A program made the translations under genes and the position numbers. From Microbulbifer halophilus (lineage in GTDB: Bacteria > Pseudomonadota > Gammaproteobacteria > Pseudomonadales > Cellvibrionaceae), in assembly GCF_026183675.1 (NCBI RefSeq), contig NZ_JAPIVK010000023.1:1-64000 (forward strand): DNA of 64,000 bases, given 5' to 3'. The notes beneath the pieces were generated by a model that was given only the letters and a program-made list of their open reading frames with translations, was not told where the DNA came from and made no database searches. Shown piece by piece: positions 53,545 to 64,000 of this stretch (its first letter is position 1; each line of letters begins with the position of its first letter).

Positions 53545-54072
53545 ATGAATACCTCCATCCGGTCTGGTGGCTTCACGCTCGTGGAGTTGATGGTTGTGGT
53601 GGCGATAACGGCCATCGTCGCCTCCATCGCCGTGCCGTCGTTCAATACCATGATCAAGAACAACCGGCTGACGGCCGCGGTGAACGATCTTTCCGGGGCG
53701 TTGAACTATGCCCGCTCCGAAGCGGTCCGCCGCGGGCGCGCGGTACAGGTGGACGCCCTTTCCGGCGACCTATCCAACGGCCTGCGAGTCTGGTTCGACG
53801 CCGATGGCGACGGCAACTTTGACGATGACGATTCCGAAGAGCTGCGTCTGGTGCGCCTGTCTTCTTCCGCCGATTTCGATGTCGAGGGCGATGTGGACGG
53901 CTCGACGAAAACCGATATCAGCCTGAGCTACAGCGCGCGCGGGTCCGTCGGCGGCGGTGGCAACCAGTTCAAGCTGACACTCTGTGACGACCGCAACGGC
54001 GATTACGGCAAGGAACTCAGCCTGCTCGCTACGGGTGTCCTGCGGCTCACTTCCAGTGTCACCTGCAGTTAG
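53545..54072 (+). CDS. fimU: Type IV minor pilin FimU/GspH-like
   Basis: 175 residues. The prepilin cleavage site is SGG/FTLVELMVVVAITAIVAS, with Glu5 of the mature protein. The body has the FimT/GspH fold pattern (NNRLTAAVNDLSGALNYARSEAVRRG). It is rich in Asp (DADGDGNFDDDDSEE), perhaps calcium-binding. Minor pilins prime pilus assembly and carry PilY1. First gene of the cluster, 146 bases after ispH. Confidence 0.85.
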   Translation: MNTSIRSGGFTLVELMVVVAITAIVASIAVPSFNTMIKNNRLTAAVNDLSGALNYARSEAVRRGRAVQVDALSGDLSNGLRVWFDADGDGNFDDDDSEELRLVRLSSSADFDVEGDVDGSTKTDISLSYSARGSVGGGGNQFKLTLCDDRNGDYGKELSLLATGVLRLTSSVTCS

Positions 54073-54083
54073 GGGAGGATTCC

Positions 54084-54551
54084 ATGAAGAAGCAGTCGGG
54101 CGCGACAATGATCGAGGTGCTGGTCACCATCCTGATCCTGGCGGTGGGGCTGTTGGGGCTCTCCTCCACCCAGATGATGAGCCTGAAGAACGGCAACAAT
54201 TCCCATCACCGCTACCTGGCGGCGCTGGCGTCGCAGGAGATGGCCGAGCGCATGCGGGCCAACCCGGACGGCGTTTCCCTGGGGAGCTACGACGATAAGG
54301 AAGTGGATGGCTCTGAAGCCGCCCAGGACTGCAGCACCGGCTGTACATCGCGTCAGCTCGCCGCCATGGATCTGTATGACTGGGGTCAGGTGATTGAAAC
54401 CAACCTCCCATCGGGTAACGGAAAAATCGTACGCAACGGCGATATCGTCACCTTTACCGTGAGCTGGGAGGAACAGCATACCGGCGAGGACCGCGCTACC
54501 ACCGACGGTGGCCTGGACGATTCGAGCTTCGAATTGGTGGTGGAACTATGA
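54084..54551 (+). CDS. pilV: Type IV minor pilin PilV
   Basis: 155 residues. Class III leader KKQSG/ATMIEVLVTILILAVG, with Glu5. LLGLSSTQMMSLKNGNNSHHR and ASQEMAERMRANPDG match PilV. ATGA overlap with pilW. Confidence 0.85.
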   Translation: MKKQSGATMIEVLVTILILAVGLLGLSSTQMMSLKNGNNSHHRYLAALASQEMAERMRANPDGVSLGSYDDKEVDGSEAAQDCSTGCTSRQLAAMDLYDWGQVIETNLPSGNGKIVRNGDIVTFTVSWEEQHTGEDRATTDGGLDDSSFELVVEL

Positions 54552-55594
54552 ACATGACTTCTCTCTCCCGGCAGCGCGGCCTGTCCCTGATCGAATTGAT
54601 GATCGCCATTCTGCTCAGCTCCATGCTGCTGTTGGGGGTGTTGCAGATTTTCGACAGCAACCGCGACACCATCCGTATGCAGACCGCTTTTGCGCGGGTG
54701 CAGGAGAGCGGCCGCTTTGCCACGGATCTGCTGACTCGGGAAATCCGCATGGCGGATTATTGGGGCTGTGCGCCGGATCCGGGCAGTATCAAGAATCATC
54801 TGGATACCAGTGACACAGATTACGATGCCAGCTATCTGGGTAACCTGGGCAATAACGGCGTTCTGGGAACGGACAACGCTAGCGGTGAAACCGTCGGCAC
54901 CAAGGCGGTGGCCGAGGGCTCCGATATCCTATACCTGCGTGGCTCCGAGAACGCTTGTGGAGGCACGGGGCGAATGGTGCCCAGCACGAATGCGGCCTCG
55001 CTGATGGCCACCCAGAACTGCGGTGTCGAGGAGGGGCAGACGGTGCTATTGGCCAATTGCCAGAGCGGTGAGCTGATGACCATTACCCAGGTCCAGGGCG
55101 GCAACGGTGGCAACTCCGATAAGCGAACACTGGTACACAACACCGGTAACAACAGCGCGGATGGCTGGATAAATAACGACACTAAAGAGCTGCAGCGGGA
55201 ATACGGCGCCGACGCTCGGCTGCTGGTGCCCTACCAGCGTATCTATTTCGTCGCCGACAGCGCGGCGGGCGACTCCTCCCTGTTTGTCAGCGAGAACGGC
55301 GGTGATGCCCAGGAGCTGATCCCCGGAATCGAGGACATGCAGCTGCTCTACGGCCGCGATACGGACGATGACGAGACGGTGGATACCTGGACCAGCGCGG
55401 CCGGCCTCACCGAGGCGGATATGGCTCTGGCACAGGCGATCAAGGTGCAGCTTGTGGCGGCCAACGAAGCCAATGTCAACGCCGACGATATGACCGTCAC
55501 TGACCTGGATGACGACGATACCACCTACACCGACGGCAGGCTGAGAAAGGTCTACCTGAGTACTGTCAAGGTGCGCAATCGGGGGAACATGTAA
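54548..55594 (+). CDS. pilW: Type IV minor pilin PilW
   Basis: 348 residues. The leader is RQRG/LSLIELMIAILLSSML. Long C-terminal globular domain with FARVQESGRFATDLLTREIR, the typical PilW helix. Overlaps both neighbours (ATGA, TAATG), so translation is coupled. Asp-rich segments near the C-terminus (DDDETVD). Confidence 0.87.
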   Translation: MNMTSLSRQRGLSLIELMIAILLSSMLLLGVLQIFDSNRDTIRMQTAFARVQESGRFATDLLTREIRMADYWGCAPDPGSIKNHLDTSDTDYDASYLGNLGNNGVLGTDNASGETVGTKAVAEGSDILYLRGSENACGGTGRMVPSTNAASLMATQNCGVEEGQTVLLANCQSGELMTITQVQGGNGGNSDKRTLVHNTGNNSADGWINNDTKELQREYGADARLLVPYQRIYFVADSAAGDSSLFVSENGGDAQELIPGIEDMQLLYGRDTDDDETVDTWTSAAGLTEADMALAQAIKVQLVAANEANVNADDMTVTDLDDDDTTYTDGRLRKVYLSTVKVRNRGNM

Positions 55595-56130
55595 TGCGGC
55601 AGATGCGAGGACAGAAAGGCGCGGTACTGGTGGTCAGCCTGATCGTGTTGCTGGTGCTGACCCTGATCGGTGTTTCCGGGGCGCGCACCGTGCTGCTGGA
55701 AGAAAAGATGACCTTCGCCTCCCGGGATGCCAAGACGGCACTGGAAGTGGCCGAGTCACTGGTAAAGCGGGGCGAGAAGTATGTCGATGGCGTCAACACC
55801 ACCGGCGATTTCGACACGAAAAACTGGTTGCACAATGAAGGAGAAGGTCCCGTGGGGCTCATGAACGCGGACACCTGGGGTGACAGCAACTCCTCGGAGT
55901 TCGAGGTGTCGATGGAGGGGCCGGACGGTAACAAGATGAAAGGCCGCATGTATATCGAGCTGGCGGGCAATGCCGACAAGGAGGATCCCGCCAACGATAT
56001 CACCGTCGGCGGCTACGGCCAGTCCACAGGCGGTGGTGAGATCAAGGTTTTCCGCATCGTTGCGCAGGGGATCGGTATTTCCGGCACCACCAAGCGCATC
56101 ATTGTCAGCCACTACGGCAAGCGTTTCTAG
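55594..56130 (+). CDS. pilX: Type IV minor pilin PilX
   Basis: 178 residues. Leader QKG/AVLVVSLIVLLVLTLIG; as is usual for PilX, residue 5 of the mature protein is not Glu. It ends with RIVAQGIGISGTTKRIIVSH. Ten bases before pilY1. PilX sits at the pilus tip with PilW and PilV. Confidence 0.87.
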   Translation: MRQMRGQKGAVLVVSLIVLLVLTLIGVSGARTVLLEEKMTFASRDAKTALEVAESLVKRGEKYVDGVNTTGDFDTKNWLHNEGEGPVGLMNADTWGDSNSSEFEVSMEGPDGNKMKGRMYIELAGNADKEDPANDITVGGYGQSTGGGEIKVFRIVAQGIGISGTTKRIIVSHYGKRF

Positions 56131-56139
56131 GGATTTCCC

Positions 56140-59100
56140 ATGAACAGAGCAATAATCAGAAAGAATACTCTCCGGGCACTGCTGTACGGTGTTTTCGGCT
56201 TTTCCACTACCTTTGCCACCTGTATCAGCGCCGAGCCGATTACCCTTTCCAACGCCCCGTTGCAGGCCTCCGGCAAAGCGCAGCCCAACCTGATGATCCT
56301 ACTGGACTCCTCCGGCTCCATGGATGATCGTCTCGATAGCGGCGAGAGACGCCTGGACGTGGCCAAGGCCGCTGCGACCGATGTGGTACGGGGCCTCGGC
56401 GATATCCGGGTCGGTCTGGCCAGGTTCGACTATGAACACGGGGCGGAAATCCTCAAAGGGCTCACCAGCATTTCCGAAAGTGGTGCACGCAGCGACCTGA
56501 TCACGAAAATCGGCGGCATTCGTGCAGAGGACTGGACGCCGCTGGCGGAGTCCATGGCCGATATCGGGCGTTACTTTGTCGAGGGCTATGACGACAGGTT
56601 CGTAACCATTCACCCGGGTACCGAGGACGAAGAGAGTGTTCTGGCCCGCGAGGTGCTCGCCAATCAGCCCCAGTACTCCTCCGTCCCCAAGCCGACCGCG
56701 GCGGACCCGGCGATCCAGTACTACTGCCAGAAAAACTTCATCCTGACTCTGACGGACGGTTTGCCGACTTATGACCAGAATGTCAGCGATTATCTGGAGG
56801 ATTACGATGGGGATTGCAGTGGCGATAATAGTGGAAACTGCAGCTCCTACGACAAAAAACACTCGGGCTATACTTATGAATCCCGGCGAAACAGGCCTTC
56901 GGATTATCTGGACGATGTCGCCGATGCGCTCTACGACATCGACTGGCGCCCGGACCTGACGGATCCCAATGACCCGGATCACAAGAACAATATTACCAGC
57001 TACTTTATCGGCTTTGCGGATTCCGATCTGGCCAACAACCAGTTGCTGAAAGATGCGGGCAGCCAGGGCGGCGGCAGCTACAAGTACGCGTCCAACTCCG
57101 CGGAACTGGTGACTTCCTTCAACGAGGCGATCGACGCTATTTCCAACTCGATCGGTACCCAGTCTTCGGTTTCGTTCAACTCCACCTCATTGGATACCGG
57201 TTCGGTAATCTACTCGGCCAAGTTCGATACCTCGGATTTCAGCGGGCGCCTCTATGCGCGCTATATGGATCCGGAGACGGGCCGCATTTCCAGCACTGCG
57301 TGGGAGGCGGCGGAAAAGCTGGCCGATGAATCGTCCAGCAGCCGCGAAATCATCACCTACTTGGACGGTAGTGGGGTGCCCTTTACCGAAAGCGAGCTGG
57401 ACGAGATCAGCGGAGCCCCCTCCTACACCATTACCGTGCGGGCGCGGGGGGAAGTAGGAGAAGAAAACATCAGCCTGAACGTCGGCGGTACCGCAATCGG
57501 TAGCTGGACACTGTCGAAGGGCTATCGAGAATTCACGGCCACCACGAACAATACGTCGGGGAAAATCCAGGTAGAATTTACCAATGACGTGGGTGAGCGC
57601 GATGTTCAGGTTGACTACATCCAGATTGATGGCACTACCCTGCAGGCTGAGGAACAGAGTGAAAATACCGGAGTTTGGGGTAATGGTGGCTGTGGAACTG
57701 GCGGTAGCAGCGAGTGGCTGCACTGCAATGGCTATATCGAGTTCTGTTCCATTGCCGGTTGCGAGTTGGCCGATGTGACCCCACAGCGGGCGGACCTGAG
57801 AGTGGACGACCACACAGGCACTGTCGACGATCAGTGGGATGATCGTCTGGACTATATTCGCGGCGATACCAGCAAGGACAGTCTGGACGGTTTCCGACCC
57901 AGGGGCGAGTTCACCAGTGGCAGTGCGGCCGGCAGCGAGATTCTGCTGGGCGATATCGTCCACTCCACCCCCATCTACGTGGGCGAGCCGGAGCTCAACT
58001 GGCCGGCGGAATTCGGCGGTAACAATCACAGTGACTCCTACGCCCAGTTCAAGATCGATGAGGAAGATCGAACGCCGATGGTCTATGTGGGGGCCAACGA
58101 CGGCATGTTGCACGGTTTCAATGCGGATACCGGCGAGGAAACCTTTGCCTATATTCCCTCCATGGTATTGAGCGACGAGCGCTACCAGGGGCTGCATGCA
58201 TTTACCAGTACTACCTACCCGCACAACTATTACGTGGATCTCACGCCCGCGGTGTCCGATGTGTATATCGATCCCGATGGCGGTAACTCGGAATCGTGGC
58301 GCACGGTGCTGGTGGGCGGCCTGCGCGGCGGTGGCAAGGGCTATTTCGCACTGGATGTGACCGATCCGGCGAACCTTGAGGAAGACAAGGCCGATGATGT
58401 CGTGCTGTGGGAATTTGACGGCGGTGACGACACCGGCCGCGCCAACCTGGGGTACGGCTATTCCGAGGCGCAGGTCGCCAAGCTCAATAACGGCAAATGG
58501 GCGGTTATCTTCGGCAATGGCTACAACAGCGACAACGGCGTTGCGGGCCTGTTTATCGTCTATCTCGAAGATGGTGCAGACGGGGAATGGAGCGCCGACG
58601 ACTGGGAGTTTATTTCCACCGGTTCGGGGTCTGAGAATGACCGCAAGAACGGTCTCTCCTCGCCGCGGTTGATCGACCTCAATGGCGATCGCGTTGTCGA
58701 CCGGGTCTACGCCGGCGACCTGATGGGCGATATGTGGGCCTTTGACCTGTCTGGCGATAGCGAAAACGACTGGGGCGTGGCTGACAACAAACCCTTGTTC
58801 AAGGCCTCCGGTGCAACGTCGGAGCCCAGCCAGGCGATCATGGCGGCGCCACTGGTGGCCCGCAACACCGCGGTCAGTAATGGAAGCGACCCCAACGTGC
58901 TGGTGATGTTCGGTACCGGCCAGTACCTGAATACCGGCGACCTCACCGACGATGATGCGGGGGCCTTCTACGCGGTGTGGGACAATGGAACGACGAATGT
59001 GACTGAATCCGACCTGGCGGAGCGGACCCTGACCGATGACGGTGTCGGACGCAAGATCCAGTCCGGCGATGATATCGACTGGAGCGAGCACCACGGCTGG

Positions 59101-59553
59101 AAAATGACCCTGGATAGCGGCTCCGGGAGCTACGCCGGCGAAAGGGTGATCACCGCGCCGACCCTGCGCCGCAATACGCTGTTTTTCAGCACCGTGTATC
59201 CGAATCCACAACCCTGTGCTTCCAGCGGCAAGGGGTACCTGATGGGGTTCGATTTCCGCACCGGCAAGGCCGGTGAGGATGCCGTCGCGGATATCAATAA
59301 CGACGGCGAAATCAACTCGGACGACGAAGGGTATGTAGGCAAGGAGTTCGGCGATGACTGCACCGGCGACAATTGCGACGGCGACGATGACAGCAACAGC
59401 GATGACGATCCCGGCATGCCCGGACAATCCGGCTTTATCGGCGATGTGCGCTGTACGCCCGGCAGCAACGGCGATGTGATCTGCGACGATATTGACGTGG
59501 GCGATGAAGAGCGGGAGGGCCGCCTGTCCTGGGAGGAGTTTGCGCCCCGGTGA
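56140..59553 (+). CDS. pilY1: Type IV pilus tip adhesin PilY1 with inserted CBM60-like module
   Basis: 1137 residues. Signal peptide at about 1-31. Von Willebrand A domain (about 48-330) with MIDAS motif LDSSGSMDDR and a distal TDGLPTYD. The conserved pre-propeller segment (GRLYARYMDPETGRI, then GVPFTESELDEI) is interrupted at about 428-535 by a separate module: SYTITVRARGEVGEENISLN, FTNDVGERDVQVDYIQIDG, then ENTGVWGNGGCGTGG and SEWLHCNGYIEF. This pattern matches calcium-dependent xylan-binding CBM60 domains. The PilY1 sequence resumes at RLDYIRGD and GDIVHSTPIYVG (propeller, about 600-1040). An EF-hand-like loop DINNDGEINSDD lies near 1050, and an Asp-rich tail follows. PilY1 caps the pilus, controls retraction and adhesion, and may bind polysaccharide here. 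Confidence 0.93.
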   Translation: MNRAIIRKNTLRALLYGVFGFSTTFATCISAEPITLSNAPLQASGKAQPNLMILLDSSGSMDDRLDSGERRLDVAKAAATDVVRGLGDIRVGLARFDYEHGAEILKGLTSISESGARSDLITKIGGIRAEDWTPLAESMADIGRYFVEGYDDRFVTIHPGTEDEESVLAREVLANQPQYSSVPKPTAADPAIQYYCQKNFILTLTDGLPTYDQNVSDYLEDYDGDCSGDNSGNCSSYDKKHSGYTYESRRNRPSDYLDDVADALYDIDWRPDLTDPNDPDHKNNITSYFIGFADSDLANNQLLKDAGSQGGGSYKYASNSAELVTSFNEAIDAISNSIGTQSSVSFNSTSLDTGSVIYSAKFDTSDFSGRLYARYMDPETGRISSTAWEAAEKLADESSSSREIITYLDGSGVPFTESELDEISGAPSYTITVRARGEVGEENISLNVGGTAIGSWTLSKGYREFTATTNNTSGKIQVEFTNDVGERDVQVDYIQIDGTTLQAEEQSENTGVWGNGGCGTGGSSEWLHCNGYIEFCSIAGCELADVTPQRADLRVDDHTGTVDDQWDDRLDYIRGDTSKDSLDGFRPRGEFTSGSAAGSEILLGDIVHSTPIYVGEPELNWPAEFGGNNHSDSYAQFKIDEEDRTPMVYVGANDGMLHGFNADTGEETFAYIPSMVLSDERYQGLHAFTSTTYPHNYYVDLTPAVSDVYIDPDGGNSESWRTVLVGGLRGGGKGYFALDVTDPANLEEDKADDVVLWEFDGGDDTGRANLGYGYSEAQVAKLNNGKWAVIFGNGYNSDNGVAGLFIVYLEDGADGEWSADDWEFISTGSGSENDRKNGLSSPRLIDLNGDRVVDRVYAGDLMGDMWAFDLSGDSENDWGVADNKPLFKASGATSEPSQAIMAAPLVARNTAVSNGSDPNVLVMFGTGQYLNTGDLTDDDAGAFYAVWDNGTTNVTESDLAERTLTDDGVGRKIQSGDDIDWSEHHGWKMTLDSGSGSYAGERVITAPTLRRNTLFFSTVYPNPQPCASSGKGYLMGFDFRTGKAGEDAVADINNDGEINSDDEGYVGKEFGDDCTGDNCDGDDDSNSDDDPGMPGQSGFIGDVRCTPGSNGDVICDDIDVGDEEREGRLSWEEFAPR

Positions 59554-59645: not shown

Positions 59646-60101
59646 ATGAAAAAGCAGTTCGGCTTTACCCTGATCGAATTGATGATCGTGGTTGTAATTG
59701 TGGGAATTCTGGCCGCTATCGCCTGGCCCTCCTACCAGAACCAGGTTCGCTCCTCGAACAGGGCCGATGCTCAGGGCGCCTTGCTGGGGCTGGCGCAGGC
59801 GATGGAGCGGCATTTTACCCAGAACGGCTCCTATGAAGAGGCCGCCACCGGGGGAAGCGATACCGGCGCGCCGGACATATTCCCGACGGAATCCCCATTG
59901 GATGGCAGCAATAAAACCTATGATTTACGAATCACTGCCGCTGATGAAACTTCCTATACCCTGGAGGCGCAACCCAAAGGCAGCCAGGCCGACGACGGTG
60001 ACCTGCAACTGGGCTCCAGTGGCGAAAAAGCCTGGGATCGCGATAACGACGGTACCTTTGACGACCCCGGTGATATGTGTTGGAACACAGCTTGTAACTG
60101 A
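59646..60101 (+). CDS. pilE: Type IV minor pilin PilE
   Basis: 151 residues. Leader KKQFG/FTLIELMIVVVIVGILAA, Glu5 present, then PSYQNQVRSSNRADAQGALL and a C-terminal disulfide candidate (CWNTAC). It is the PilE minor pilin rather than the major pilin, judged from context after pilY1. No PilY2-like gene lies between. Its stop is one base from the opposing fimT stop. Confidence 0.87.
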   Translation: MKKQFGFTLIELMIVVVIVGILAAIAWPSYQNQVRSSNRADAQGALLGLAQAMERHFTQNGSYEEAATGGSDTGAPDIFPTESPLDGSNKTYDLRITAADETSYTLEAQPKGSQADDGDLQLGSSGEKAWDRDNDGTFDDPGDMCWNTACN

Positions 60102-60102
60102 G

Positions 60103-60663
60103 TTAGCCGGCGGCACAGTTCAACTTGTTGCCGCTGCCATCTTCCACGATGCCGTCGCCGTCTCCATCCCTGCCAAAATAGGGGCGGCCGGTGGCATTGA
60201 GTACGATGATCCAGCCGTAGTCGGGGGCACCGTCCGGCGGACAGTATTTGAAATTGCCCGTTTGCCTCTGTGTGTGGCCATCCGGGCGATACTGCAGATA
60301 ATCCTGGAGACTGTTCCATTCAAGGGAGGCATCGGCCGGGAGGTCTGAGATTTTCCTTTCTATTGTTTCGTCGCTCTCCCGCTCGTGGTTGCCGTTGCTA
60401 TCGACGAAAAGAAGTATGTATGCCGACCAGTCGCCGCTGCACTCCTCACCGTCGGTGCTCCCGCACAGGGTATAAATCTTCCCCTCACTGTAGGCCTTGC
60501 TGCGGGCGAGGGCGACCAGATCGAACAGCCGTTGGCGTTGTGTTTCGTTGCGGTGACGGTTGAGAAAATCCGCCATGGGCGGGATGGCGACAGCCATTAC
60601 GACCGCGAGGATGGTAAGGGTGAGCATCAGCTCGACAAGGGTAAAACCCGAAGCTTTCTTCAT
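60103..60663 (-). CDS. fimT: FimT/GspH-like type IV pseudopilin
   Basis: 186 residues. Leader KKASG/FTLVELMLTLTILAVV, Glu5 present, with RQRLFDLVALARSKAYSEGK typical of FimT. The start at 60663 is preceded by AGGAG that lies within an 11-bp hairpin. In Pseudomonas fimT also lies by the pilS-pilR and minor-pilin genes. In some species FimT binds DNA for natural transformation; the C-terminal tail here is not strongly basic (NKLNCAAG). Confidence 0.85.
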   Translation of the reverse strand: MKKASGFTLVELMLTLTILAVVMAVAIPPMADFLNRHRNETQRQRLFDLVALARSKAYSEGKIYTLCGSTDGEECSGDWSAYILLFVDSNGNHERESDETIERKISDLPADASLEWNSLQDYLQYRPDGHTQRQTGNFKYCPPDGAPDYGWIIVLNATGRPYFGRDGDGDGIVEDGSGNKLNCAAG

Positions 60664-60694
60664 GGTGCAAACTCCTCTTCCCTGAGTTTGCACC
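60664..60694 (-). promoter_or_regulatory. Hairpin containing the fimT ribosome-binding site
   Basis: On the minus strand GGTGCAAACTC and GAGTTTGCACC pair perfectly over 11 bp, with the AGGGAAGAG loop; the Shine-Dalgarno AGGAG spans loop and stem, and the stem touches the ATG. Folding would hide the start site. Confidence 0.6.
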
Positions 60695-60767
60695 AGCATA
60701 CCGATGGCTGCGCAAAAACCAATCACGATAGATTACAGTACGATCGTATAGGTTTTGCGGCCGGGGC

Positions 60768-62162
60768 TCAGTCCTCCAGCCCCAACTTCTTCAACCGATA
60801 ACGCAATGAGCGAAAGCTGATCCCCAGCTTCTGCGCCGCCGCCGTGCGATTCCAGCGGGTTTCGGTCAGTGTCGTTTCGATCACGCCCTTTTCGATATCC
60901 TGGAGAAAATCGTCCAGGGACGGGTAGCTGCCGGGGTCGAACTGGCCCGGGTAGCTTTCGGGCGGTGACGCTTCGGTGACCTGTCGCTGTGGCGTCGGTC
61001 GGGGCTGCGGTATATCCCGTTCCAGCAGCAGGTCCTCCACGCGAATCACCTGCTGGTCGCAGAGGGTAAAGGCCCGCTCGAGGATATTTTCCAGCTGGCG
61101 CACGTTGCCGGGGAAGGAGTAGTCCTGCAGTGCGCGCAGCGCTTCTTCGGACAGCCGGGGAGCTCCGACCCCGGCGTCGGCGGCGATACGGTCCATGATG
61201 ATGTTCGCCAGCAGGGGAATGTCCCGGCTGCGTTCCCGTAGCGGCGGCACGGCGATCTCGATGACGTTGATGCGGTAGTAGAGGTCGCTGCGGAAGCGGC
61301 CCTCGGCGACTTCCCGCGCGAGATCCCTGTGGGTGGCGCTGAGGATGCGCACATCCACGGGTACTTCCTCGCTGGCGCCGACCGGGCGCACGCATTTTTC
61401 CTGGATGGCGCGCAGCAGTTTTACCTGCATGTCGAGGGGCAGGTCGGCCACTTCGTCCAGGAACAGGGTGCCGCCCTGGGCGCTCTGGAAAAGGCCGGGT
61501 TTGTCCTTGTGGGCGCCAGTGAAACTGCCTTTTTTGTGGCCGAAGAATTCGCTCTCCATCAGCTCGGCGGGAATGGCACCGCAGTTGATGGGCACGAAAG
61601 GTCGGTCGGCACGGGCGCCCTGGCTGTGGATGGAACGCGCGGCCAGTTCCTTGCCGGAGCCGGACTCGCCGCTGATATAGATGGGGGCGTCGCTGCGCGC
61701 CACCTTGCCCACTTGGCGGCGCAGCCGCTGCATGTTTTCCGCTTCGCCGAGCAGTAGTTGGTCGGATTCCGGTGGTGCGGGTGTGTCGCCGGGCTTCTGC
61801 AGGCGCAGGGCCAGTTGCACCAGGCTTCGCAACTGCTCCAGGTCCACAGGTTTGCTGACGAAATCGAAGGCCCCCATCTTCAGGGCCTTGATCGCGGTGT
61901 CCATATTGCCGTGGGCGGTGATGATCGCAATCGGCAGGTCGCCGTCGCGCTCTTCCTGGACATGTCGAACCAGTTCCAGGCCATCGCCGTCAGGCAGGCG
62001 CATATCGGTGAGGCAGAAATCGTAGCGGTGTTCCCGCAGCAGCCGGTGGGCCGCGGCGAGATCGGCGGCCGTATGGCAATTGACGTCCATGCGACGCAGG
62101 GTGAGTGTCAGCAGTTCGCAGATATCCGGTTCGTCGTCGACGACCAGTGCCAGTGGTTGCAT
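60768..62162 (-). CDS. pilR: NtrC-family response regulator PilR
   Basis: 464 residues. Receiver (about 4-115) with DDEPDICE and DMRLPDGDG; AAA+ domain with Walker A GESGSGKELAARSIH (about 166), KKGSFTGAHKDKPGLF (sigma-54 contact loop) and Walker B-type GGTLFLDEVADLP; C-terminal Fis-type helix-turn-helix (NRTAAAQKLGISFRSLRYRL). It activates sigma-54-dependent pilin transcription. It lies downstream of pilS on the same strand. Confidence 0.94.
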   Translation of the reverse strand: MQPLALVVDDEPDICELLTLTLRRMDVNCHTAADLAAAHRLLREHRYDFCLTDMRLPDGDGLELVRHVQEERDGDLPIAIITAHGNMDTAIKALKMGAFDFVSKPVDLEQLRSLVQLALRLQKPGDTPAPPESDQLLLGEAENMQRLRRQVGKVARSDAPIYISGESGSGKELAARSIHSQGARADRPFVPINCGAIPAELMESEFFGHKKGSFTGAHKDKPGLFQSAQGGTLFLDEVADLPLDMQVKLLRAIQEKCVRPVGASEEVPVDVRILSATHRDLAREVAEGRFRSDLYYRINVIEIAVPPLRERSRDIPLLANIIMDRIAADAGVGAPRLSEEALRALQDYSFPGNVRQLENILERAFTLCDQQVIRVEDLLLERDIPQPRPTPQRQVTEASPPESYPGQFDPGSYPSLDDFLQDIEKGVIETTLTETRWNRTAAAQKLGISFRSLRYRLKKLGLED

Positions 62163-62278
62163 AGTGCCGTATGGTTTTATTGTTGGTGAATTCTCCAGGC
62201 GCTCAATTATGGCAGATTCCCGCGATCATTTGGTGCGGAGGGCGCCGGGAATTTTTCTCGGGAAATAGGTGCAGCCTG

Positions 62279-63874
62279 CTAAAAAAGTTTATCGGCGTGG
62301 GCGAACTCGATGCGAAAGCAACTTTTGTTGTCGTCACTGCGACAGTAGTAGAGATTGGCCTGGTTGGCCTCGCAGAGTTCCCGCGCGATGTAGAGGCCCA
62401 GGCCGCTGCCGCCCTGGCCGGTGGTGAAAAAGGGGTCGAAAATTTTGTCCCGGTGTTCCGGCAGTACACCGCGGCCGCGGTCCACCACGTCCAGCACGGC
62501 GCAGTCGCGTCCGCTGTTGCTATAGACGGTGATATCCACCTCGCGGCGCCCGGTGACGAGATGGGAGTGGTGCAGGGCGTTATTGCACAGGTTGGTGAGT
62601 ACCTGTGCCAGTTGATCGGGATCGAAACGGGCACTGATCGGTCTCTGGGACAGTTGCAGGCGTATCTGCGCGTCCTTCGGCGCACCGGCGCGGAAGTCGG
62701 CGATAAACTGTTCCAGCCAGCGATTCAGGTCGTTGCGTTGCGGCACCGCCGGGCGCCGGCGCGATAGCTGCATCACATTTTCCACTATCTGGTTTACCCG
62801 CTGGCTGTGGCGGCAGATGATCGAGGTCAGGTGGCGGTCCTCGTCGCCGAGGCTGTCGGATTCCGACAGCAGTTGCGCGGCGTGGCTGATGGCGCCCAGC
62901 GGATTGCGCACTTCGTGAGCGATGGAGCCGGTCAGGTGGCCCAGCGAGGCGAGTTTCAGTTTCTGTGCGGCCTGGGTGAGCTTGCGATTATCCTCCACGA
63001 ATACCAGCGTGCTGTCGTCGTTTTCGCGCCGCAGCTTGGCGAAGTTGAGCCGCAGTTCGCTGCCGTTGTCTGCGCTGAGCAGGGCACTGCCGCGGTTCCG
63101 GTTGCGGCGCCACTCGCGCACGACCCGATGCAGTTCCGCCTGGCGGTCGCCGCCCGGCTGCAGTGGCTCCCCCAGCAACTGGCGTGCGGCGCGGTTGATC
63201 AGCTCCGGTTTGTTGGCGGCGTCCATCACCAGCACGCCGGTGCGCATGCGCTCGATGATCTGCTGTGCCAACCGCTGCAGGTGGGCGGCCTGGCGGCTCT
63301 GCTGGTCGGCGCGCAGGGTGGCGCTGCGGATGCGCCCCGACAGGTACTGCAGCGTGCTCACGGTAGCGAACAGCAGTATACCGAGGCTGCCGGCGGAGAC
63401 GATGTCCTGGGTGTCGGCGCGCCCGAGGATCAGGCCGTAGAGCTGCTGGCCGATCACCGCGATACTGGCGACAGCGGCGAAGAAGGCTCCCATGCGCCGG
63501 TCGAGCAGCATGGAACCGACGGAACAGTTGATCAGCAGCAGATAGCCGAGACCGGAATTGAGGCCGCCGCTGGCCTGGATCAGCAGCAGGAAAGCCAGGA
63601 TATCGCAGCCGAGAATCAGCCCCACCTGGCCGGTATTGGTGCGATAGGCGACCCGGCGCAGGTGCAGCAGCCAGCCGAAGTTGAGCGCCGCATAGGCGAT
63701 CACGGTATTGAGATAGAGGGCCGGGGCCGTATTGCCCACGGCGCCCTTGCCGATGTCGGAAGTGAAGATTCCCAGCAGGATCAGCGCTATGGCCACGCGG
63801 TAGAAAGCGTAGATCCGCAGCAGTTCGTGGTGGTGCAGGGTGGATCCGCTGGCGCTCGACGCTGCAGTATGCAC
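62279..63874 (-). CDS. pilS: Sensor histidine kinase PilS
   Basis: 531 residues if initiated at the GTG at 63874, almost the length of P. aeruginosa PilS (530). The frame stays open to the window edge, but the upstream codons lack a start with a good site. The N-terminal half is membrane-embedded with about six helices (HHHELLRIYAFYRVAIALIL first), followed by a PAS-like segment, H-box GSIAHEVRNPLGAISHAAQL, N-box NLCNNALHH and G-box GQGGSGLGLYIA. It senses pilin levels in the membrane and phosphorylates PilR. Confidence 0.9.
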   Translation of the reverse strand: MHTAASSASGSTLHHHELLRIYAFYRVAIALILLGIFTSDIGKGAVGNTAPALYLNTVIAYAALNFGWLLHLRRVAYRTNTGQVGLILGCDILAFLLLIQASGGLNSGLGYLLLINCSVGSMLLDRRMGAFFAAVASIAVIGQQLYGLILGRADTQDIVSAGSLGILLFATVSTLQYLSGRIRSATLRADQQSRQAAHLQRLAQQIIERMRTGVLVMDAANKPELINRAARQLLGEPLQPGGDRQAELHRVVREWRRNRNRGSALLSADNGSELRLNFAKLRRENDDSTLVFVEDNRKLTQAAQKLKLASLGHLTGSIAHEVRNPLGAISHAAQLLSESDSLGDEDRHLTSIICRHSQRVNQIVENVMQLSRRRPAVPQRNDLNRWLEQFIADFRAGAPKDAQIRLQLSQRPISARFDPDQLAQVLTNLCNNALHHSHLVTGRREVDITVYSNSGRDCAVLDVVDRGRGVLPEHRDKIFDPFFTTGQGGSGLGLYIARELCEANQANLYYCRSDDNKSCFRIEFAHADKLF

Positions 63875-64000
63875 GGCTGGTTTCCGTTTTGTTGTTCTGT
63901 GTGTTGAGCCCCGGGGCTGTGGTCGTACCCCGGCTGATTCCCGAAACCCGAGTTGAAATTCGCCCGCCGCGGTGCGGTGGTCCCCCCGGTCACGGTACAA

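Follow-up and report, generated by a model that had tools for sequence, protein, structure and literature searches.

A CBM60 module inserted in a PilY1 pilus-tip adhesin of Microbulbifer halophilus

Introduction

PilY1 homologues are known to sit at the pilus tip and to prime the pilus. The PilC/PilY1 proteins are modular, with 68 InterPro architectures whose N-termini differ (PMC8179133; this and the other papers given by PMC number are cited from excerpts of their text). In Myxococcus xanthus, PilY1.1 carries a calcium-binding, lectin-like DUF4114 domain that is genetically tied to exopolysaccharide-dependent twitching, binding being unmeasured there, and the swapping of PilY1 forms has been proposed to adapt the pilus tip (PMC9109919). 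Glycan binding was measured for PilC of Streptococcus sanguinis, a modular pilin with a lectin module (PMC9934059). CBM60 is a family of carbohydrate-binding modules for which the excerpts report, second-hand, that a Cellvibrio member targets xylans, galactans and cellulose (PMC9107766); the vCBM60 structure 2xfd was solved with cellobiose, according to its entry title. Here we describe a pilY1 gene of Microbulbifer halophilus whose product contains a CBM60 module. The gene lies in a stretch of 64,000 nucleotides (contig NZ_JAPIVK010000023.1, positions 1 to 64,000), called the window below, and residues are numbered along its PilY1 protein unless stated otherwise.

Results

A preliminary description of the window, made from the sequence alone, had proposed that its PilY1 carries an embedded CBM60-like module, and this proposal was confirmed. 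In a Pfam scan, CBM60 (PF16841) matched residues 430-507 with an E value of 5.7e-10 (40 bits against a cut-off of 28.2), and two excised stretches scored 46 and 46.9 bits with the same profile; the match is significant, so the objection that no such match exists falls away. When the whole protein was compared with PDB sequences, residues 428-538 matched vCBM60 (2xfd, 2xfe) and 2xhh/2xhj at about 1e-35, and the excised module matched 2xfd and 2xhh over 110-111 residues at 8.4e-38 and 1.2e-37. The motifs ITVRARG, FTND, DVQVDYI, NTGVW and SEWLHCNGYI on which the proposal had been based are all present in the translated open reading frame (ORF). We counted a column as conserved if it is the same in 90% or more of 24 CBM60 rows. 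Of 33 such columns the module keeps 31; at module position 15 it has E in place of T, and at position 97 it has T in place of G. Among the conserved residues present are N482, D483, D488, D492, C518, W526 and C529, which mark the presumed calcium and ligand site and probably include the calcium ligands. The identity of the module as a CBM60 is thus close to certain, and chance is no explanation for it. In a tree of 62 CBM60s the module stands on a long branch (0.56) and its place is not settled, so we name no donor.

The presence or absence of the module in related proteins was compared by aligning 21 PilY1 relatives. Residues 418-546 are extra with respect to 18 of them, in which GVPFT-like residues are followed by about 10-12 residues and then by the next conserved stretch; the remaining three have a different insert at the same point. 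The nearest module-free relatives align over residues 1-418 and again from about 544, not across the module, so that the flanks are ordinary PilY1, as had been described. The nearest of them among the matches listed, from genome G099, is 68% identical before the module and 75% after it. Across 45 PilY1 ORFs, the stretch around the slot (residues 411-552) measures 17-26 residues in 41 and 120-142 in four, the window protein having 142. Third codon positions have a GC content of 0.636 in the insert, lower than in the flanks (0.722 and 0.753), which hints modestly at a foreign origin. By these comparisons the segment is a clean insertion into PilY1.

The same 45 ORFs vary in length at a second place, inside the VWA domain beside the DxSxS motif (residues 56-72 of the window protein). 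This stretch is 121-384 residues long in 27 ORFs, for example L047:4106-7459, and 11-28 in the other 18; the lengths are unsure for 12 of the 27, whose N terminus is cut at the locus ends. No Pfam name was obtained for the long stretch in the four such ORFs scanned. The VWA stretch and the propeller slot are never both filled in one ORF.

Outside the module, the Pfam scan placed the T4P_PilY1 propeller (PF05567) at residues 603-956 (E 2.5e-54) and VWA_2 at residues 51-126 (E 5.4e-6, 27.4 bits against a cut-off of 27). The C-terminal domain of Pseudomonas aeruginosa PilY1 (3hx6) matched residues 569-1063 in a search of PDB sequences (E 9.2e-64). All matches in an NCBIfam scan of the protein stayed below their cut-offs; the best was the PilC tip adhesin of Neisseria (NF040838), with 91.4 bits against an equivalog cut-off of 350, and since this cut-off was missed we do not class the ORF as a Neisseria-type PilC. 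Near the C-terminal end, residues 1051-1064 (59290-59331) form the stretch DINNDGEINSDDEG, which by eye resembles a dockerin or EF-hand calcium loop; weak dockerin matches below the Pfam cut-off occur in the same C-terminal part of two related PilY1s.

A structure model of residues 33-1137 (own residue = model residue + 32) has a mean predicted local distance difference test (pLDDT) value of 83 and contains a run of strands at residues 429-537, which corresponds to the module. This run, together with the lack of the segment in most relatives, speaks against a fold that merely continues the VWA domain or the propeller. Solved VWA domains align within model residues 13-334 (own 45-366; 4fx5 with Z 20.5 and PilB, 7b7p, with Z 18.8), and 3hx6 aligns with Z 27.5 over 420 residues. 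The alignments to eight-bladed designed propellers begin at model residue 308-312 (own 340) and cover nearly the whole propeller chain, 307 of 320 residues for 6tjg, and ahead of the module the model has strands at model residues 324-331, 336-344, 351-357, 372-376 and 379-382, a unit spanning own residues 356-414. These aligned ranges and strand lists suggest an eight-bladed propeller with one blade ahead of the module and the others behind it. The preliminary description had placed it inside PilY1, not at an end, which stands, and in the lead-in to the propeller, which apparently does not: in the model it lies within the propeller. The whole-model fold search gave no CBM60 entry among its 50 rows; since VWA and propeller entries take up the whole list, this says nothing for or against the module.

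The features of the locus are collected in Table 1. The operon order fimT-pilV-pilW-pilX-pilY1-pilE is the minor-pilin setting of pilY1; we take the first gene to be fimT from the gene order, and the last is presumably pilE, given where it stands in the operon. Another fimT-like gene for a minor pilin (60103-60726, minus strand) faces the pilY1 operon. Beyond the operon, 60768-64000 (minus strand) encodes a sigma-54 response regulator, likely PilR, and a kinase, likely PilS, whose transmembrane domain is PilS-like. The genome has one PilY1 propeller match and six CBM60 places, pilY1 included. The other five CBM60 proteins are xylanases and esterases, each of which also has a CBM2, CBM6 or CBM10. 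One region, which contains two of these enzyme genes, shares 86-89% DNA identity with a Microbulbifer litoralis locus over two overlapping stretches of about 3.2 kb.

Table 1. Features of the pilY1 locus and the other CBM60 proteins of the genome
Feature	Position	Strand	Basis or remarks
fimT-like minor pilin	53545..54072	+	GspH and N_methyl domains
pilV	54084..54551	+	TIGR02523 PilV, 84.1 bits vs cut-off 52.2
pilW	54548..55594	+	PF16074 PilW, E 3.9e-20
pilX	55594..56130	+	PF14341 PilX_N, E 9.2e-12
pilY1 with CBM60 insert	56140..59553	+	1137 aa, uninterrupted frame; PF05567, PF16841 and VWA_2 matches
VWA domain, residues about 47-338; DSSGSM = residues 56-61	56278..57153	+	Pfam VWA_2 51-126; model vs solved VWA domains
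First propeller blade (probable), residues about 340-414, precedes module	57157..57381	+	suggested by propeller alignments and model strands
Inserted segment, residues 418-546	57391..57777	+	alignment with 21 PilY1 relatives, slot length, third-position GC content
CBM60 module, residues 428-538	57421..57753	+	2xfd/2xhh matches, PF16841, kept conserved columns
PilY1 beta-propeller per Pfam, residues 603-956	57946..59007	+	PF05567; 3hx6 Z 27.5
pilE-like minor pilin	59646..60101	+	N_methyl and ComP_DUS domains
GH43-CBM6-CBM60-GH10			CBM60 protein of the same genome
CBM2-CBM60-glucuronoyl-esterase-type			CBM60 protein of the same genome
Esterase-CBM60-CBM2			CBM60 protein of the same genome; esterase generic by Pfam
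CBM2-CBM60-esterase			CBM60 protein of the same genome; esterase generic by Pfam
GH11-CBM60-CBM10 xylanase			CBM60 protein of the same genome

CBM60 itself occurs in 56 of 144 family genomes by the Pfam profile and in 54 by a protein query. When 185 CBM60 places in 51 of these genomes were compared with 100 PilY1 places, all among the matches listed, the window's own place was the only one with a PilY1 at a distance of 12 kb or less; G031, included in the 51, is without a PilY1 match. None of fourteen CBM60-bearing ORFs from fetched regions gave a propeller match, and as a control the propeller profile matched all 46 PilY1 ORFs. A class sample had CBM60 in 7 of 369 genomes, the window's own included, and the other six matches fall in frames of 378-996 aa; in an order sample, searched at E 1e-6, 10 of 390 genomes had it, and eight of the ten belong to this family. 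A two-pattern scan of named genomes, itself far from complete, provided 20 further CBM60 loci, none with a convincing PilY1-flank match (best E 0.008). The arrangement is therefore rare, and others may exist beyond the matches listed and the genomes sampled. Two partial CBM60 matches, in G719 (a frame of 1224 aa) and G401 (996 aa), were not recovered by the local CBM60 profile, and no propeller was found with either.

The three relatives with a different insert, from genomes G069, G082 and G071, carry about 100 residues at the insertion point of the window module, and a profile search of the 144 family genomes found this insert in these three only. Pfam gave nothing over cut-off for it, CBM60 included, the local CBM60 profile did not match it in any of the three, and CBM60 gave a weak profile-profile match (probability 13.9%, E 0.002). 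The G069 insert was modelled from the three sequences alone, with no templates. The insert is all-beta at a pLDDT of about 73-87; the flanks are unreliable, the mean being 60 and the predicted template modelling score 0.52. Against 350,542 PDB chains, Foldseek returned 2xhh and 2xfd as its top two (E 1.8e-3 and 3.4e-3; none under 0.001). VIA-align gave Z scores of 13.4 (2xfd, root-mean-square deviation 1.7 over 89 residues) and 12.7, the next entry, an unrelated sugar-binding protein, reaching 7.5. We read the three inserts as probable CBM60-fold domains whose site has been lost or changed. On this reading, which goes beyond the preliminary description, modules of the CBM60 fold have occupied this propeller loop in two PilY1 sublineages.

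A tree of 44 PilY1 flanks pairs the window protein with the module-free G099 protein as its sister (support 98/90) and places the G069, G082 and G071 proteins in another branch (95/68) with one module-free copy. The module-bearing rows require three changes or more, and a single origin was found in 0% of 200 bootstrap trees. In 66 of 500 label shuffles the result was as good as for the observed module label, which is therefore hardly clustered on the tree. Either repeated gain at one site or one gain with repeated loss could account for this pattern.

Two or three pilY1 genes stand close together in 11 of 20 regions (L038, L039, L040, L042, L043, L044, L045, L047, L048, L053 and L054). G071 and G082 each combine a pilY1 copy whose propeller slot carries a module with a copy that lacks one there.

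Discussion

Judging from sequence, polysaccharide binding from the pilus tip appears the most likely role of the inserted module. The mechanism that we favour, and hold to be rather probable, starts from PilY1 as the non-pilin adhesin at the tip of type IVa pili, with a role in their priming, and from a CBM60 inserted between one blade and the remaining blades of its propeller. The VWA domain and propeller would prime the pilus and sense force as is usual for PilY1, and the CBM60 would project from the propeller and hold a beta-linked polysaccharide via calcium. Xylan is favoured as the ligand because xylanases and esterases carry the other CBM60s of the genome; galactan or cellulose would be possible. 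The retracting pilus would then pull the cell onto a polymer that its own CBM60-bearing xylanases and esterases may cut. The module, its insertion point, its conserved binding-site residues, the operon setting, the use of CBM60 in enzymes of this genome and the PilT-family genes, with two matches over the cut-off, are observed and speak for the proposal, as do the cellobiose in the vCBM60 structure and the M. xanthus precedent. From these we infer the fold of the module in its context, its display at the tip, the binding of calcium and ligand, and the effect on twitching.

Several observations weigh against this proposal. The cysteine-bearing loop (residues 498-527) is modelled with low confidence (pLDDT under 50). 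The inserts of the three relatives have FTND and DVQVDY replaced and are missing the W/C loop. The PilT family model also gives matches over its cut-off in 5 of 14 control genomes. Among the genomes searched, the arrangement is found in one only, so that conservation cannot vouch for its function. Finally, the long branch and unsettled place of the module in the CBM60 tree allow a changed specificity.

This last point bears on a first alternative, which we consider unlikely: the module would bind galactan, a cellulose-like polymer or a bacterial exopolysaccharide, from the cell's own matrix or that of its neighbours, instead of plant xylan, and would serve cell-to-cell or matrix twitching. Binding of galactans and cellulose by a CBM60 is on record, second-hand, in the excerpts of PMC9107766, those of PMC9109919 provide a precedent in M. 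xanthus PilY1.1, and the module has diverged from its enzyme-borne counterparts. It has nevertheless retained all but two of the conserved columns, and the company that the other CBM60s of this genome keep, on xylanases and esterases, also argues for xylan.

More doubtful still is a module with no binding left, present as a structural spacer or as a decaying passenger, a beta-sandwich that the loop tolerates. The CBM60-fold insert at the same point in three relatives, without calcium motif or cysteine loop, is what such a history might leave behind, and most relatives are module-free, with a short slot in 41 of the 45 PilY1 ORFs. The copy in the window, however, retains the acidic residues, both cysteines and the tryptophan; a passenger so diverged in sequence would be expected to lack some of them, and their retention therefore counts against this alternative. 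An assembly artefact that joined the CBM60 stretch of an enzyme gene into pilY1 is very improbable: the genome is a draft of 109 contigs and the fusion occurs in one genome only among the matches listed, but the frame is intact across pilY1, relatives have another insert at the same point, and the module, being 44-57% identical to the five other CBM60 copies of its genome, is not a misplaced copy of one of them.

If polysaccharide binding from the tip is the right reading, one shared kind of binding module links polysaccharide-degrading enzymes with pilus retraction, which would offer a degrader a direct and testable route to find and hold its substrate. The PilY1 propeller site takes up whole domains with the frame unbroken, which is of use in interpreting the diversity of PilY1 proteins and in putting binders on display at pili. 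We offer tentatively, as something short of an even chance, the broader idea that the inter-blade loop is a reusable dock for CBM60-fold modules, which have been gained, lost or remodelled more than once in the genus, a tandem pilY1 pair providing module-bearing and module-free tips. Tandem pilY1 genes could in that case allow a single cell to vary the tips of its pili according to the polysaccharide.

The preliminary description had called CBM60 in PilY1 not widely described, and our searches agree: none was found in open-licence PubMed Central, and no other CBM60 is near a PilY1 among the matches listed. In that collection, no paper contained both CBM60 and 'type IV pil', papers naming CBM60 did so with enzymes or bare and never with pili in the excerpts available, and the excerpts of papers naming PilY1 and a carbohydrate-binding module did not join the two. 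Modular and lectin-like pilus tips are known already; the CBM60 module, its place inside the propeller and the recurrence of the CBM60 fold in the slot appear to be the new elements.

With P. aeruginosa PilY1 (3hx6) and the PilY1/PilC tip adhesins in general, the window protein has in common the VWA domain, the propeller and the minor-pilin gene setting; it differs from them in the CBM60 that, as modelled, lies inside the propeller. To vCBM60 and the Cellvibrio japonicus CBM60 (2xfd, 2xfe, 2xhh, 2xhj) the module is related as a member of the same family, over the full module length and at about 1e-37. The C. japonicus module 2xhh belongs to a GH11 xylanase, by the excerpts of PMC9107766, and is thus enzyme-borne, unlike the PilY1-borne module described here. 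S. sanguinis PilC is similar in that a lectin module has been shown on a type IV pilus; that module, as far as the excerpts describe it, is grafted onto a pilin, has a ConA-like fold and binds human glycans, unlike the CBM60 of the window. Like M. xanthus PilY1.1, the window protein has a sugar-binding-type module within a PilY1. In M. xanthus the DUF4114 occupies the N-terminal part and is likened, in the excerpts, to LecB-type lectins, whereas the CBM60 of M. halophilus is of the enzyme type and appears to sit in a propeller loop, beside an intact VWA domain.

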